DNA of 10,675 nt from Candidatus Anstonellales archaeon (lineage in GTDB: Archaea; Micrarchaeota; Micrarchaeia; Anstonellales; CG1-02-47-40). The notes under the pieces were generated by a model. It was given only the letters and a program-made list of their open reading frames with translations, searched no databases and had not been told where the DNA came from. The translations under genes and the position numbers were made by a program. Below are positions 2-10,675 of this stretch, one piece after another (position 1 is the stretch's first letter; each line of letters starts with the position of its first letter). The DNA is taken from the NCBI GenBank assembly GCA_038869735.1, contig JAWCQO010000013.1:1-10675 (forward strand), written 5' to 3'.

Positions 2-2965
2 TCTGTTTCTGGGGTAATGGAATTTGAGCGAAAGAAAGAAGAGGCACTTACTGAGCTTGGACATGTTGAATCAAAAATAAATGAAACAAAAATAGTTTTA
101 GCGGAGAGGGAAGGTGTATTATCCGAACTTGAAAAAGAAAAGAATGACGCCCTCCTATATATTGATGCGACCAATAGACTAAAGAATTCAAAAGCTTCTC
201 TTCTTTGTTTGGAACTTAACAAAATTGAAGGAGAACATAGCAAAATACTTCATGATTTAGAGCAAATAGAAGCGTCAAAAAAGGATGCAGAGTCGCATAT
301 ACGGCAACTAGATGAAAAAATAAAACAACTTTCAGAAGAACGAGGAGAACTTATAAATAAGATAAACAAGCGAGGCGAGCGTGAAGGTACCATAAAAGAG
401 ATAGAAGATTTTAAATCAAAAATAAAAGCTGCAGAAGCAACCATCAATGAAAAGAATAGGGTATTGAAGGGATTAGAAGATGAGCTTAAAAAACTAGATG
501 CAAGGAAGAACGAATATTCAAATAAAATATTACATTTGGAAACAAAAATAGCTGCTTCTCAACAAGAAGCCGCACTAAACGAAATCGAAATAAACAGACT
601 TAAAGAAAGCGGTCTACTCTCCAAAAGAGATATACCTCAAACGAATGAAGCTGAGCGAGTTTCCACGGAGTTGTCGCTTCATCTTCAGAAAAGAGCCAAG
701 TTGGAAGGAGAGATATCATCAATTCAGGAAACGTTACTTCTTCTTGAAGAAAAACAAAAAAAACTTGAGGTCATGGTGAGTGAGATCGGTATTAACGAAG
801 AAAAAGATTTAACATCAAAAAAATCAGCACTTTTATCAGAAATTCAATCATTAGAAAAAGAGATTGACGCATTATTCGAAAAAGAAAAAGAAATAAATAA
901 AGAAATCCCCCAGCTCGACAAAAGTAGGCTTGAACTTGGAGAAAAAGCAGCGACTCTCCGCACTCAGGTTAGAGGTGGAGGGGAGCAGAATCATGCGCTT
1001 GCTGTTGTATCTCAACTCAAAGGAAAGATTAGTGGAATATATGGAACCGTCTCAGAGCTCATCTCATTTGACCAAGAATATGCCGTCGCAATTGAAGCGG
1101 CATGTGGACAGAGGTTGAACTACGTAGTAGTTGAGAACATAGATGTAGCCTCTCAAATTATCTCAATACTAAAAAAACAAAAGGGAGGGAGATGCACCTT
1201 TATACCACTTGATAGAAAGGTAACCCCACTGAGTCAAGAAACCGAAAAAATAGCAAAATCCCAATATTCACTTGGCTATCTCTCGGAGTTTGTAAAATAT
1301 GAGCGATATTTAGAGCCAGTCATGAACTATGTTTTTTCAGACACGATACTTGTCAATTCAATCGAACAAGCAAAAAAGATAGGTCTGCAAAAAGCACGAA
1401 TAGTTACAATAGAAGGCGAACTCATAGAGAGGTCAGGTGTAATAACCGGAGGAAGCTTTAGTGGGATAGCAACTGCCCGTGCGCAACTTGAAAAAATTGA
1501 AAGTGAGATACTAAAAATAAAAGAAAAAAGAGAGGCACTCTATTCGACTCTATACTCCACAAGAGAAGAGATGGGGCGAAAAAGGAAAGAAAAGGCTGCT
1601 CTGGAGGTTGAATTAAAAGGAATTGAGGTAAAACTCGACAACCTATCTGTTAGGATAAAAAGCCTCCACCAGTCTCAAAAAGATTTGGAACAGACAAAGA
1701 AAAGAGTTCAGGAAATCCTAGCACTTATAGAACAAAAAAAATCACAAATGTTAAAGTTAGACGAACAGATGAAAGTTCTAGAGTCCAGACTCCGTTCAAT
1801 AAAAGAAAAAATGGTTGAAGAAGAGAAAAAAACAGAAGAACTAAAGATCCAAGAACAAAATAGACTAAATGAGCTCATAGCTAATCATTCGGCATTATTA
1901 GAAGGGATAAAGGGTTTTGAAAACGAATTAGCCTTATATCGCTCGCACCTGCATGAAGCAACCGAAGAGGAGAAAAGGAAAAGAGATGACCTAAAACTCC
2001 AAAAGTCAGAAATTATTAACCTACAGAAACAATGTGCCGAGTATAAGGACTTTATAACTGCAAAAGAGGAGGAACTGCGTGAAGCCAGCAAGCGAATACA
2101 AAAGTGGTTTGAGACATCAAAAGAACTTGAGACTCAAATCTCAGCTTTAGCTATTGAAAAAGGAAAATTCCAACATTCATCAGAGACAGCTTCAAAGAAA
2201 ATCGAGGAATTAAAAATAAAGAAAGCAATGATAGAGACCAAACTTATTGATCTAAAAAGTGAATTTGAAGAATATAAAGAATTTGAAAAAGTGGATGCTC
2301 CAAAAGAAAAACTCCTCGAGCTAATTAGAGAAAGTGAAGAAACTCTTTCTAGACTTGGCAGCGTGAATTTAAAGGCACCGCATATCTATGAAGAAAAAAG
2401 AAAAGATGTGCTTGAAATTAAAGAAAAACTTTCAAAGCTTTCAGATGAACGTTCTGCAGTTTTGCAAATGATCTCTGAGATAGAAAAAAGAAAATATGCT
2501 GTCTTCATGGAAACATTTACGGCAATTGCTGACAACTTCAAGAGACTCTACGCCAATATGTTCAAGGATGAGGAAGCCATGCTTGTCCTTGAAAATCCGA
2601 CTGACCCATTTTTGGGTGGACTTGCCATAAAAGTACGTGAGGGGAAGCACGAAAAAAATATTGAATCTATGTCCGGAGGCGAAAAATCACTTATGGCAAT
2701 TGTCTTCTTGTTTGCGATTCAGCTCTATAGACCGGCACCTTTCTATGTTTTAGACGAAGTAGATGCTGCCCTCGACAAAGAAAACTCAAAAAAGCTTTCA
2801 ATACTTGTATCGAAAATGGCTGATAAAACACAATTTATTGTAGTCACCCATAACGATGCAATGTTGACTGCCGCCGATATGGCTATTGGAGTCTCGATGA
2901 CAGATGAAGGTTCAAAGGTCGTTGGTCTTCAAATAAAAAACAGCATTAAAATAAAAAATGATTAA
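2..2965 (+). CDS. smc: Chromosome segregation/condensation ATPase SMC, 5'-truncated by window edge
   Basis: Structural maintenance of chromosomes protein, an ABC-type ATPase that dimerises through a hinge and organises the chromosome. The frame is open from base 2 with no stop, so the first ATG (base 17) is internal. The visible 987 residues begin SVSGVMEFERKKEEA, typical of the SMC stretch just after the N-terminal head. Full SMCs run about 1150-1200 residues, so roughly 160-200 residues including Walker A lie outside the window. Numbering from base 2: coiled coil to about 320; hinge about 325-490, ending near the glycine-rich VITGGSFSG; second Lys/Glu-rich coil to about 850; then the C-terminal head with ABC signature MSGGEKSL (890-897), Walker B FYVLDEVD (914-921), D-loop ALD after it, and switch histidine H950 in VVTHND. 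All catalytic elements that can be seen are intact. No ScpA/ScpB gene is in the window. The stop is 10 bp from that of the convergent lipoprotein gene. Confidence 0.96.
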   Translation, partial: SVSGVMEFERKKEEALTELGHVESKINETKIVLAEREGVLSELEKEKNDALLYIDATNRLKNSKASLLCLELNKIEGEHSKILHDLEQIEASKKDAESHIRQLDEKIKQLSEERGELINKINKRGEREGTIKEIEDFKSKIKAAEATINEKNRVLKGLEDELKKLDARKNEYSNKILHLETKIAASQQEAALNEIEINRLKESGLLSKRDIPQTNEAERVSTELSLHLQKRAKLEGEISSIQETLLLLEEKQKKLEVMVSEIGINEEKDLTSKKSALLSEIQSLEKEIDALFEKEKEINKEIPQLDKSRLELGEKAATLRTQVRGGGEQNHALAVVSQLKGKISGIYGTVSELISFDQEYAVAIEAACGQRLNYVVVENIDVASQIISILKKQKGGRCTFIPLDRKVTPLSQETEKIAKSQYSLGYLSEFVKYERYLEPVMNYVFSDTILVNSIEQAKKIGLQKARIVTIEGELIERSGVITGGSFSGIATARAQLEKIESEILKIKEKREALYSTLYSTREEMGRKRKEKAALEVELKGIEVKLDNLSVRIKSLHQSQKDLEQTKKRVQEILALIEQKKSQMLKLDEQMKVLESRLRSIKEKMVEEEKKTEELKIQEQNRLNELIANHSALLEGIKGFENELALYRSHLHEATEEEKRKRDDLKLQKSEIINLQKQCAEYKDFITAKEEELREASKRIQKWFETSKELETQISALAIEKGKFQHSSETASKKIEELKIKKAMIETKLIDLKSEFEEYKEFEKVDAPKEKLLELIRESEETLSRLGSVNLKAPHIYEEKRKDVLEIKEKLSKLSDERSAVLQMISEIEKRKYAVFMETFTAIADNFKRLYANMFKDEEAMLVLENPTDPFLGGLAIKVREGKHEKNIESMSGGEKSLMAIVFLFAIQLYRPAPFYVLDEVDAALDKENSKKLSILVSKMADKTQFIVVTHNDAMLTAADMAIGVSMTDEGSKVVGLQIKNSIKIKND
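2931..2960 (-). terminator. Oligo-T tracts, probable terminator of the translin-lipoprotein unit
   Basis: On the minus strand, just past the lipoprotein stop, two T-rich runs (TTTTTTATTTTAA and TTTTTTATTTG) follow each other. Archaeal termination commonly uses such oligo-T tracts without a hairpin. They lie inside the 3' end of smc, so transcripts of the two convergent units probably overlap. Inferred from composition only. Confidence 0.4.
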
Positions 2966-2975
2966 AGACAAAATA

Positions 2976-4028
2976 TTAACCTCTCTTTTCAGTTCTTATT
3001 TGATAGGTTGTTCCGTTGCTCTGTATGATAATATTACCATCTAAATCTGTGCGATACAGCTTTATATTTAGGACTTTCATTTTTTCGATGCTAGTTGGAT
3101 TAGGATACCCATCTTTGTTTGGACCCACGCTTAGTAATGCATCCTTAGGTTCAACTGCTACTAGAAACGTGAGGTCAGTGCTACTAGCTGAGCCATATTT
3201 AGCAATCTTTAATACTTCGCATCTCAATCCACCGCTACCTACCAACTTATTTTCAATTCCCCTCTCTATGTTTGACGTTAGGAGCAGACAAAATTGTCTG
3301 TCAGTTATTTTTACTACTATACTATTTGCGTCTTTGTTTTGTGTAAATCTATCCTTTTGAGGATTCAAAAATCTAAAGACCATACCATTAAATTCCACTT
3401 CGTCGCCTTCTTCAGGATGCCTTATGGGGACCCCGTATGCTGCCGCATATTGACTCACTTCTTGAAAATCCGTTCCACCTAACTCATCTCCATTTGTCCA
3501 AATCTCGCTTATTGGAAAATTCTCAAAAAGACTCCTAGATCCCCCAAAACGTTTTTCATCATCAGAGGTAATAACTAGGGCTTCAATTTTGTTTATCCCT
3601 AATCGTTGGAGCTCCGAAACAAGTTTTTTGGAAGTTTCATTTCTACCCGCATCAAAAAGAATCTCAAAATCACCTTTTTTAATAAGTATTGACTCTCCAT
3701 AGCCAACATCAAAAACGTAAACATAGGTTTGTTGGTTTTCGTTTTTTGAAAATTGAAAGTTTTTTCCAAACTCTTTATACTGAGAAGAGAGTTTTGTTAT
3801 ATCTCCTTTATCAATTTCCATCGAAGTAGCATTTATCGTTGGGATAAACCCTTCTTTATCGTCTTCCTCTATTTTGCTATTCGTTTGCCCATAAACTATA
3901 TTCTTACCCTCAAATTTTATTCTGTAAGGCAGGGTCTCTCCATCTTGATTTGAAGGGCTTTCTTTCTCTGTATTTTGTATACAGCCACCAATCAAAATAA
4001 GGATTAGCAAAAGACCTTCAATTTTCAT
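2976..4028 (-). CDS. Lipoprotein with ComEC-like metallo-beta-lactamase fold lacking the metal ligands
   Basis: Predicted 350-residue membrane-anchored protein. Residues 1-16, MKIEGLLLILILIGGC, form a signal peptide with a lipobox ending at C16, followed by a polar linker. From about 100 to 345 the order of motifs is that of the MBL domain found in ComEC/Rec2-type proteins: VFDVGYGESILI (105-116), LFDAG (124-128), LGINKIEALVITS, GG (162-163), KDANSIVVKI, LLLTSNIE, EVLKIAKYGS (271-280), LLSVGPN (298-304) and LYRTDLDG (324-331). The ligand positions differ: the usual THxDxDHxGG reads TSDDEKRFGG (154-163), LTGD reads LTSN, HHGS reads KYGS, and GHP reads GYP. A metal-dependent hydrolase is therefore unlikely; a binding or scaffold role is only inference. 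Start chosen at the ATG preceded by AGAGGTAAATAAG, placing the signal peptide at the N-terminus; a start at 4067 would put 13 polar residues in front of it. It follows the translin stop by 1 nt (TAAGATG), so coupled translation is likely. Confidence 0.85.
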   Translation of the reverse strand: MKIEGLLLILILIGGCIQNTEKESPSNQDGETLPYRIKFEGKNIVYGQTNSKIEEDDKEGFIPTINATSMEIDKGDITKLSSQYKEFGKNFQFSKNENQQTYVYVFDVGYGESILIKKGDFEILFDAGRNETSKKLVSELQRLGINKIEALVITSDDEKRFGGSRSLFENFPISEIWTNGDELGGTDFQEVSQYAAAYGVPIRHPEEGDEVEFNGMVFRFLNPQKDRFTQNKDANSIVVKITDRQFCLLLTSNIERGIENKLVGSGGLRCEVLKIAKYGSASSTDLTFLVAVEPKDALLSVGPNKDGYPNPTSIEKMKVLNIKLYRTDLDGNIIIQSNGTTYQIRTEKRG

Positions 4029-4029
4029 C

Positions 4030-4596
4030 TTATTTACCTCTTGTATGTAGTATTTCGCTTCTGGCACGTTCTAGCTGACTTCTTACTATATCTTGTTTTT
4101 GCCTAAAACCTCGTACAAGCGAGTCAGAAAAGCGAATCGCTACTAACTCATCGGCGATTGCATCCATTACTTCAAAATATCTAAGAGCTTCCTTTTTTCT
4201 TCCCTTCTTTAACTGCTCAAGCATTTGTCGTCTCAATTCTCCTACACAGTCGCATATGCCTGTAAGATAAGAAGAATCTTCGACACCCAGTTCTTCTGCT
4301 TTAGGGATAGACTTATTTTCTATTATTGAAAGAAGAATGCTTGCTTCTACAACTTCTTGCTCAGCTTGTAAGAACATATACGAAAGTTTTTCCTCTTTCT
4401 TTACATTAGACAAAATTTTTTTCGCTTTATCTACCATCTTTTTCGCTTGGCTTATTTTGCCTCCATGCATTAATTTTATTGCATTTGAGCAAAATCTTAC
4501 TATCTCTCGAATACGGGGTATAATCTTATCTTGGGTCTTTTCAAGTTTTGATAGCCTTTTTACTATTTTCTCTATCCCGATATCAATTTTTGCCAT
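4030..4596 (-). CDS. Translin-family protein (archaeal translin/TRAX-like)
   Basis: 188-residue, almost entirely helical protein of the translin superfamily. Eukaryotic translin and TRAX form the C3PO nucleic-acid-binding octamer, with RNase activity in TRAX; archaeal single-gene homologues are known. Family-like segments are the N-terminal basic helices (about 10-70), QEVVEASILL (80-89), the ELGV..SYLTG turn (102-113), CVGELRRQML (117-126), YFEVMDAIADEL (140-151) and the C-terminal FRQKQDIVRSQLERAR (164-179). E81, E84 and E120 are acidic positions reminiscent of those used by TRAX-type nucleases, but I cannot confirm the alignment. Upstream sequence has no Shine-Dalgarno, and the ATG lies about 25 nt from a TATA box, so the transcript is probably leaderless. 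It is the first gene of a two-gene unit with the lipoprotein. Substrate unknown. Confidence 0.83.
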   Translation of the reverse strand: MAKIDIGIEKIVKRLSKLEKTQDKIIPRIREIVRFCSNAIKLMHGGKISQAKKMVDKAKKILSNVKKEEKLSYMFLQAEQEVVEASILLSIIENKSIPKAEELGVEDSSYLTGICDCVGELRRQMLEQLKKGRKKEALRYFEVMDAIADELVAIRFSDSLVRGFRQKQDIVRSQLERARSEILHTRGK

Positions 4597-4647: not shown

Positions 4648-5334
4648 ATGAGAAAAAACACTGTCGTTATTTCATTAGGCGGGAGCTTAGTAAATCCTGG
4701 AAAACCTGATTTTTCTTACATTAACAAAATTAGCAGATTACTTGAAACGTTAGATTATTCCTTTGGTGTTGTAGTCGGAGGCGGAAGGCTTGCTCGTCAA
4801 TACGCAGAAAGAGAAAGAAAAAAAGGAAAAGGTGAATTTGAAGCCGATTTAGCCGCAATAAAAGCAACAAAAATTAATGCAAATCTGTTAATCAAATCAT
4901 TAAAGCGTCAAGCATATTCAAAGGTATGTAGTACTTTTGATGAGGCAAAAAGAGCCTCGAAGAAATATAAAATAGTTGTTATGGGCGGTACAATTCCTGG
5001 CATTACTACCGATGCTGATGCAGCGCTCTTAGCAGAGTGTCTCCACGCACGTCGCTTAGTAAACATAAGCAATATAGATGGAATATACGATAGAAATCCT
5101 TCTAAATTTCATGATGCACGAAAGTATCGTTATATGAAATTTGAGGAGCTACTTCTCCTTTCTAATAAGGAAGATTTAAGACTTGCAGGAGGACACTTTG
5201 TATTCGACATTTTAGGATGCAAAATAATTGCAAGAAGTAAGATTGAGACCCATTTTGTTTCGGGTAAAAACCTTAGTGACGTTTCAAAGGCTATTCAAGG
5301 AAAACGGCACAATGGCACCATTGTGTCCAGTTAA
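4648..5334 (+). CDS. pyrH: UMP kinase (uridylate kinase), archaeal type
   Basis: Phosphorylates UMP to UDP with ATP in pyrimidine nucleotide synthesis, in the cytoplasm. Amino-acid kinase fold of 228 residues, the usual archaeal length (about 225). Motifs in order: phosphate-binding ISLGGSL (8-14); VVVGGGRLAR (41-50); acidic/Lys-rich segment with DLAAIKATKINA (68-79); VVMGGTIPGITTDADAALLAE (110-130), the uridine-binding and phosphate loop; NISNIDGIYDRNP (139-151), nucleotide binding; C-terminal GTIV. The start is the ATG about 26 nt after the TATA box, with no Shine-Dalgarno in front (oligo-T and A only), fitting a leaderless mRNA. A small lysine-rich gene follows in the same direction and probably shares the transcript. 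No oddities in the active-site motifs. Confidence 0.95.
   Translation: MRKNTVVISLGGSLVNPGKPDFSYINKISRLLETLDYSFGVVVGGGRLARQYAERERKKGKGEFEADLAAIKATKINANLLIKSLKRQAYSKVCSTFDEAKRASKKYKIVVMGGTIPGITTDADAALLAECLHARRLVNISNIDGIYDRNPSKFHDARKYRYMKFEELLLLSNKEDLRLAGGHFVFDILGCKIIARSKIETHFVSGKNLSDVSKAIQGKRHNGTIVSS
5308..5325 (+). repeat. Palindrome at the 3' end of pyrH
   Basis: CACAATGG-CA-CCATTGTG is a perfect inverted repeat with 8-bp arms and a 2-nt centre. In RNA it could form a 7-bp hairpin with a GCAC loop. It ends 6 nt before the pyrH stop codon and 12 nt before the GGTGA ribosome-binding site of the next gene. It also encodes HNGTIV at the conserved C-terminus of UMP kinase, so it may be coincidental. 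Confidence 0.5.
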
Positions 5335-6149: not shown

Positions 6150-6164
6150 ATACGTCACCCCCCG

Positions 6165-6200
6165 TTACATTATGTTAATATGGTATTAACACTTATGTAA
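6165..6200. promoter_or_regulatory. Nested inverted repeat over the hsp20 transcript start, candidate operator
   Basis: The inner dyad TGTTAATA-TGG-TATTAACA (6173-6191) has perfect 8-bp arms. It lies inside outer arms TTACAT (6165-6170) and ATGTAA (6195-6200), almost concentric, separated from it by 2 and 3 nt. It begins 5 bp downstream of the hsp20 TATA box and covers the predicted transcript start near 6185, the place where archaeal heat-shock repressors such as Phr and HSR1 act. Dimer binding is inferred from symmetry. Confidence 0.6.
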
Positions 6201-6205
6201 AAGGA

Positions 6206-6215
6206 CTATTTAAAG
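6206..6215 (-). promoter_or_regulatory. hsp20 TATA box with purine-rich BRE
   Basis: On the minus strand CTTTAAATAG is preceded by the purine-rich GCGAAAG, which fits a BRE. The expected transcript start is about 25 bp downstream (near 6185). This gives a leader of about 36 nt that contains the GGGGGGTGA ribosome-binding site. Confidence 0.6.
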
Positions 6216-6666
6216 CTTTCGCTTTTGCTTTCTGTCTATGATGAAAAAGAAACGATTGATTGTTTGTATACCAAAAAGAATAGGTATCGACCTTTACAAC
6301 AAAAGACTATAATCAAGATGATGATATAGGATTTGTTACATAAACCAAACTAAAATACGCCACGGCGCATTTCGATCAATTAAATAAGAAACAAAAAAGA
6401 TTCAAGTATCATTTCAAGTTACCCCCTCCACAAGATTTTCCACATTTTTTCGAATTTATAAAATCCGGAAATTATGCAAAATACACCAGCAATTTTGAAG
6501 CTGAATTAAAGGGATAGCTTCTTGCATGAGGTAAGAAACCGATTATTTCCAGCATTCGACCCAAGTGTCATTAAACTTTTTTGCGATATAGAGGTTTTGG
6601 GGTTCGTTGAATGTCGTGCAGAGCCTGCCCATCGTCTATTTTTTATTCTAGTCCTCATTATCAGTA
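6216..6666. other. 451-bp gap without a convincing gene
   Basis: Bounded by the hsp20 promoter and the dph2 stop codon. I find no tRNA, rRNA, C/D box pair or long frame. It holds a 24-codon plus-strand ATG frame (6238-6312). It also has a 57-codon open stretch without any start codon (6344-6517), whose translation, including PPPQDFPHFFEFIKSGNYAKY, looks protein-like. A TATA-like TTTATAAAA lies at 6455-6463, and a T run (CTATTTTTTATTC) at about 6637-6649 on the plus strand. A decayed gene or a short untranslated RNA is possible; neither is established. Confidence 0.5.
6344..6517 (+). pseudogene. Possible gene remnant without start codon
   Basis: A 57-codon open stretch bounded by TAA (6341) and TAG (6515), with no ATG, GTG or TTG in frame. 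The reading has a plausible amino-acid mix: KKQKRFKYHFKL, then DFPHFFEFIKSGNYAKYTSNFEAELKG. The same frame upstream of the TAA reads KDYNQDDDIGFVT, as if one gene were interrupted. I recognise no family. A stretch this long can occur by chance in AT-rich DNA. Confidence 0.2.
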
Positions 6667-10627: not shown

Positions 10628-10675
10628 TCTTGGTAATATTCTTTATCCATAATCTTGGTAATATTCTTTATCCAT
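10628..10675 (+). repeat. Perfect 23-nt tandem repeat at the window end
   Basis: Two identical 23-nt copies beginning TCTTGGTAATATTCTTTATC lie at 10628-10650 and 10653-10675, separated by AA, period 25. They start 4 nt after the nadM stop and run to the last base, so more copies could follow. Each copy is T-rich and could add to nadM termination. Confidence 0.85.

Follow-up and report, generated by a model that had tools for sequence, protein, structure and literature searches.

ComEC and other extracellular MBL proteins

The closest described relative of the protein considered here is the C-terminal MBL domain (CTD) of ComEC, represented by M. glycerini (PDB 9ic4) and M. thermoacetica. In M. 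glycerini ComEC, single alanine changes at H598, D602, H603 or D700 leave the protein virtually inactive, D600A causes only about a 5-fold loss of activity, and H725 and S728 are putative DNA-binding residues (PMC12455585). A partly degenerate version of the domain is known from S. pneumoniae, where the motif II His and Asp are replaced by Asn and Glu, respectively, and the motif IV Asp by Asn. This CTD is suspected to be inactive and has been proposed to serve as a DNA guide; it resides in a full ComEC of a transformable bacterium in which EndA does the cutting (PMC8579336, PMC12455585).

The next-best structural relative is Pce/CbpE (1wra, 2bib), an extracellular MBL protein that acts as a teichoic acid phosphorylcholine esterase. 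It is a zinc enzyme with choline-binding modules. Among the papers listed by a literature search, none dealt with an MBL pseudoenzyme like the one described below; a joint search for Micrarchaeota and ComEC gave two papers, neither of which names the phylum or the protein in its title or abstract.

A predicted free-standing ComEC-type lipoprotein

The window, i.e., the whole 10,675-nucleotide stretch of DNA that was analyzed, is a complete contig (C13) of a Candidatus Anstonellales archaeon. The lipoprotein gene P0001 and its signals are as follows.

2976..4028, minus strand: P0001, a lipoprotein with a ComEC-type MBL fold and a degenerate metal site (frame, homology, structure)
4036..4041, minus strand: AGAGGT, a Shine-Dalgarno-like, likely ribosome-binding site
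3981..3992, minus strand: lipobox I13-G14-G15-C16 after a hydrophobic stretch (sequence)
2985..3737, minus strand: MBL domain, residues 98–348 (predicted structure)

The gene runs from an ATG at 4028 to a stop at 2976 and encodes 350 amino acids in an intact frame, while the plus strand across the same interval is full of stops. The first-pass annotation had described an intact frame, a good ribosome-binding site and a lipobox, and each is borne out. The AGAGGT at 4041–4036 lies 7 nt 5′ of the ATG, where the translin gene upstream has its final codons, and the N-terminus of the protein, MKIEGLLLILILIGGC, consists of a hydrophobic signal followed by the lipobox IGG-C16, as is typical of prokaryotic lipoproteins. 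By a simple rule, a lipobox also occurs in 67 of 86 homologues. The lipobox cysteine would be expected to anchor the protein outside the membrane, with residues 1–84 forming a linker that is modelled at low confidence.

The ComEC homology of the protein is far above chance. A phmmer search of the PDB matched it to the M. glycerini domain 9ic4 (E = 3.2e-20) and to the full ComEC structures 30bt and 9vc6. NCBIfam TIGR00361 (ComEC_Rec2) also matched with E = 1.9e-22, although below the whole-protein cut-off; the match is confined to the C-terminal part of the model. The Pfam Lactamase_B score (18.1 bits) likewise falls under its cut-off of 22.7 bits, as expected for a protein in which the motifs are gone. 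All of the segments named in the first-pass annotation, FDVG, LFDAG, KDANSIVVK, SVG and the LKxxxxGS loop (which reads LKIAKYGS), were found.

An AlphaFold2 model, built from 13 sequences, predicts a single domain from about residue 95, with pLDDT mostly 80–97 from residue 91. In VIA-align, residues 98..348 of the model overlay 9ic4 with a Z of 34.5, an rmsd of 1.8 and 27% identity over 250 aligned residues, well above the scores for Pce (Z 27; 14% identity) and RNase J (Z 18). The predicted structure is thus MBL-like, as had been proposed. In fold, domain order and inferred location on the extracellular side of the membrane, the protein resembles the ComEC CTD. Unlike the latter, it is a separate lipoprotein, and the channel domain PF03772 is absent from its 350 residues.

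A degenerate metal site

Positions were counted in the phmmer alignment to 9ic4 and agree with the published numbering (PMC12455585). The altered elements are as follows.

3549..3566, minus strand: degenerate motif II, S155-D-D157-E-K159-R160 (ComEC H598-x-D600-x-D602-H603; alignment to 9ic4)
3270..3272, minus strand: N253, replacing the motif IV Asp (ComEC D700; alignment)
3189..3200, minus strand: K277-Y-G-S280, replacing HHGS, with H725 lost and S728 kept (alignment)

Four metal ligands are replaced (H598 by S155, D602 by K159, H603 by R160 and D700 by N253), as is the substrate histidine (H725 by K277). D600 is retained as D157, the motif III Asn as N235 and the substrate serine S728 as S280; the motif I Asp is kept as well. 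Five of the six tracked residues (H598, D600, D602, H603, D700 and H725) are therefore lost, and of the five metal ligands of a ComEC-type MBL nuclease only D600 remains. The earlier claim that every metal ligand had been lost is correct for H598, D602, H603 and D700, but it is too strong as worded because D157 and the substrate serine S280 remain.

A metal site is not expected in such a protein, for which metal-dependent phosphodiester hydrolysis would be impossible. Side chains at the six positions carry a net charge of +2 (K159, R160 and K277 vs. D157), as opposed to −2 to −3, before metals, in relatives with an intact site. The replacement of the motif IV Asp by Asn is common to the S. pneumoniae CTD and the window protein; the latter differs in being a free-standing archaeal lipoprotein with a deeper loss of ligands.

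Distribution and graded ligand loss

P0001 has a relative in 50 of the 59 Ca. Anstonellales genomes (phylum Micrarchaeota), including 20 of the 24 better genomes. In a sample of the phylum, 73 of 295 genomes matched, 70 of them within the order and three outside. A contig search for relatives used a 7-row alignment as query. Viral contigs contained no relative. P0001 is the single match in its own genome, where an intact paralogue was not found; five other Lactamase_B frames do not match it. The nearest orthologue, from Ca. Micrarchaeota CG1_02_47_40 (L041 = G001), belongs to another genus and is 46–47% identical, with nearly the same replacements (TADDEKRWGG, LLTSN and AKYGS).

The homologue set of 86 distinct sequences comprises 12 intact relatives and 74 family members, where "intact" denotes H, D or H, D, H, D and H at the six positions. 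None of the 74 keeps all six residues; one keeps five, ten keep four, and 63 keep three or fewer. The intact relatives form one separate group in a tree calculated without the ligand columns (SH-aLRT 96). Among them are archaeal ComEC-like MBL proteins from this class or order (L078, L083, L087, L093–L097, L081, L099 and L100), which share the domain and in which, likewise, no channel was seen in the same frame. Unlike the window protein, they keep all six residues, sit in other gene neighbourhoods and nearly all lack W177, a residue discussed below. Also among the 12 is L050, a bacterial sequence on a long branch. It derives from a Nitrospiria MAG contig, is 277 aa long with an intact HFHKDH, and was the sole bacterial relative obtained from the scan.

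Within the family, the pocket has been altered differently from clade to clade. For example, Pro occupies the D700 position in all 12 members of f5, while the D600 and D602 positions drift in that clade (entropy 2.1 vs. 1.4 for the median column). In f8-g17, Tyr occupies the H725 position in 17 of 17 members, and both HHGS histidines are Tyr or Phe. S280 is retained in only 16 of 70 members with f9 set apart, whereas the motif I Asp persists in 81 of the 86 sequences. The four f9 members are highly divergent, and the alignment of their ligand positions is unsure. Such clade-specific chemistry means that no single ligand-binding pocket is conserved. Lys and Arg make up 18.4% of residues at the six ligand columns vs. 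8.8% elsewhere in 59 divergent members, an excess that is suggestive but, coming from related sequences, is not an independent test.

At the other end of the range, five half-degenerate f8 members (L048, L074, L076, L077 and L090) carry HxDxE/DH, Asp and WHGM. They retain four or five of the six tracked positions, with hardly any variation inside the group. L048, L077 and L090 combine HDEHD or HDDHD with a second His. Since these sister members may still bind metal, the family need not be inactive throughout. By parsimony on a quick tree, H725 requires three changes and the metal ligands 7–11, which tentatively points to an early, single loss of H725 followed by repeated losses of metal ligands.

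Second copies of the gene exist in f5, in some Anstonellaceae (L054, L057, L061, L068 and L071). These are distinct, mostly keeping HHGS and having lost motif II. A gene of cluster 19, Holliday-junction resolvase-like by eye, lies near four of the five (L057, L061, L068 and L071).

Selection and family-specific residues

Three close, metal-poor pairs of relatives gave dN/dS values of 0.157 (L017/L064), 0.114 (L065/L063) and 0.158 (L034/L056), the relatives being used as the closest sequence to the window gene itself is only 46–47% identical. Values of 0.11–0.16 in relatives argue for maintenance rather than decay. With the fold kept, catalytic residues lost and selection evident in related pairs, the first-pass view of a maintained pseudoenzyme is supported, and neither of the two refuting outcomes named with it, a structure unlike MBL or close orthologues with intact ligands, was observed. 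The residues that distinguish the family are as follows.

3498..3500, minus strand: W177, family-specific and near-invariant (W in 66 of 70 members with f9 apart, and in 1 of 12 intact relatives)
3288..3290, minus strand: C247, first cysteine of a co-varying pair (86-sequence alignment)
3219..3221, minus strand: C270, second cysteine and candidate disulfide partner of C247 (86-sequence alignment)

N222 shows a similar pattern to W177: outside f9, 68 of 70 members have it, whereas it is nearly absent from intact relatives. Both cysteines occur in 49 sequences, neither in 33 and one alone in four, so that they are together or absent in 82 of 86. On supported branches, this corresponds to about five independent pairs with none contrary, which falls short of significance (sign test p 0.125–0.25). 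In the AlphaFold2 model, C247 and C270 belong to successive strands, each cysteine falling where its strand begins or immediately ahead of that point; their predicted positions and co-occurrence fit a candidate disulfide outside the cytoplasm.

Gene neighbourhood

P0001 is flanked by genes that recur with it elsewhere in the order:

4030..4596, minus strand: translin-family gene, directly upstream, a conserved neighbour (PF01997, E 2.2e-07; synteny)
2..2965, plus strand: SMC gene, convergent, truncated 5′ by the contig boundary; a neighbour in several families of the order (domain match, synteny)
4648..5334, plus strand: archaeal UMP kinase gene pyrH, a divergent neighbour in the same conserved block (TIGR02076, E 5.4e-62)

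The block of pyrH (opposite strand), translin, the P0001 family gene and SMC (convergent) repeats in f1, f5, f7 and f10, and the pyrH neighbour is retained in f9. The stop codon (TAA) of the translin gene ends at 4030, 1 nt before the lipoprotein ATG at 4028. Same-strand translin is adjacent in 16 neighbourhoods; the gap is 207 bases in one of these and between −41 and 63 in the others. The negative gap scored for the window reflects a longer scripted start, the ATG at 4028 giving +1. Translin and the lipoprotein gene are likewise paired in f6 and several f8 genera, while f8-g17 has GlyRS upstream instead. This adjacency, found in both halves of the tree, suggests a possible functional link between translin and the lipoprotein; the partners would be on opposite sides of the membrane. 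The NCBIfam PRK14562 models that match the 4030–4596 gene are named "haloacid dehalogenase superfamily protein", in conflict with the Pfam Translin assignment.

ComEC-style DNA uptake, or natural transformation, was considered and is unsupported. The ComEC channel domain PF03772 was found in 0 of 59 Anstonellales genomes, with 10 of 14 controls positive, and DprA (PF02481) is absent from the window's genome, 2 of 29 genomes searched having one. Pilus-type ATPases are present, but these are general. Uptake in the ComEC sense is unlikely given the missing channel and the lack of DprA in this genome.

Several other features of these regions may be recorded. In f5, a gene beyond SMC in 11 neighbourhoods (L117, L118, L124 and others) encodes a small protein whose N-terminus is pilin-like (e.g., QAAMEYLVTYGWALLALFVV). 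In the window, about 500 bases between Hsp20 and Dph2 (6160–6660) are without a convincing gene, and the contig terminates in a perfect 25-bp tandem duplication (10628–10675), perhaps an assembly end effect. There were no Rfam matches anywhere in the window.

Possible roles

The explanation that best accounts for these observations, and one considered reasonably probable, is that P0001 encodes an old, maintained, membrane-anchored pseudoenzyme outside the cytoplasm: a stand-alone ComEC-type MBL domain that has lost its two-metal center and is selected as a binding protein. Such a protein probably binds rather than cuts, and the old cleft would still hold a ligand. In the proposed mechanism, a free-standing MBL nuclease domain would have lost its two-metal catalytic center. 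Positive side chains (K159, R160 and K277) may then stand in for the metal ions, next to a neutral N253 and an S280 that could still contact phosphate. With charge replacing metals and S280 kept, nucleic acid or some other phosphate-bearing molecule outside the cell would be the most likely ligand, and the adjacent gene of the nucleic-acid-binding translin family is a weak pointer in that direction. A common ligand throughout the order is not established, because other clades have altered the pocket differently.

A fuller version of this binding role can be sketched, although as a whole it is rather doubtful. It would hold that the protein serves a channel-less order as a receptor at the cell surface, recognizing nucleic acids or phosphate compounds, that H725 was lost first and the metal ligands several times independently thereafter, that basic replacements arose in some lineages, and that the receptor works with the translin product.

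Alternatively, the cleft could be vestigial. The protein would then be retained because a different surface of it serves a structural or docking function in the envelope, and it would bind neither a small molecule nor nucleic acid. The variation of pocket positions between clades is what this would predict, and the common conserved features of the family (W177, N222 and the cysteine pair) include no metal ligand. However, some pocket positions have been fixed anew within clades, such as the Pro of f5 and the Tyr of f8-g17, which suggests that the cleft region still matters. This alternative is rated as unlikely.

Lower still is the likelihood of a persisting enzyme, which would act on a substrate other than nucleic acid, either through a metal site that has been rearranged or through acid-base chemistry that needs no metal (D157, K159, R160, K277 and S280). 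Consistent with such activity are the retention of D157, N235 and S280, the widespread motif I Asp, the HxDxEH and Asp of sister members, and the resemblance to Pce, the closest fold after ComEC, which indicates that the fold serves several chemistries. Nevertheless, changing any one of the four lost ligands to Ala leaves M. glycerini ComEC virtually inactive (PMC12455585), and the replacements vary by clade, with the D600 and D602 positions drifting in f5, unlike an active site.

Finally, the sub-threshold Lactamase_B score might seem to point to recent decay, or to a loss confined to this genome, but both are ruled out for practical purposes by the open frame, the order-wide occurrence, the near-identical replacements in another genus, the conserved gene order and the low dN/dS in relatives.

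Significance

The pseudoenzyme interpretation has its precedent in S. pneumoniae ComEC, the one ComEC pseudo-domain found in the literature, a bacterial case within full ComEC. What is new is an archaeal lipoprotein family that stands alone, spans an order and shows graded ligand loss. Its intact, half-degenerate and largely replaced sites, with context kept, form a naturally occurring series in which the function of an MBL fold without metal can be explored. The family also marks a widespread, uncharacterized protein, predicted to lie at the surface, of the Anstonellales, small-genomed archaea whose dependence on hosts is debated.
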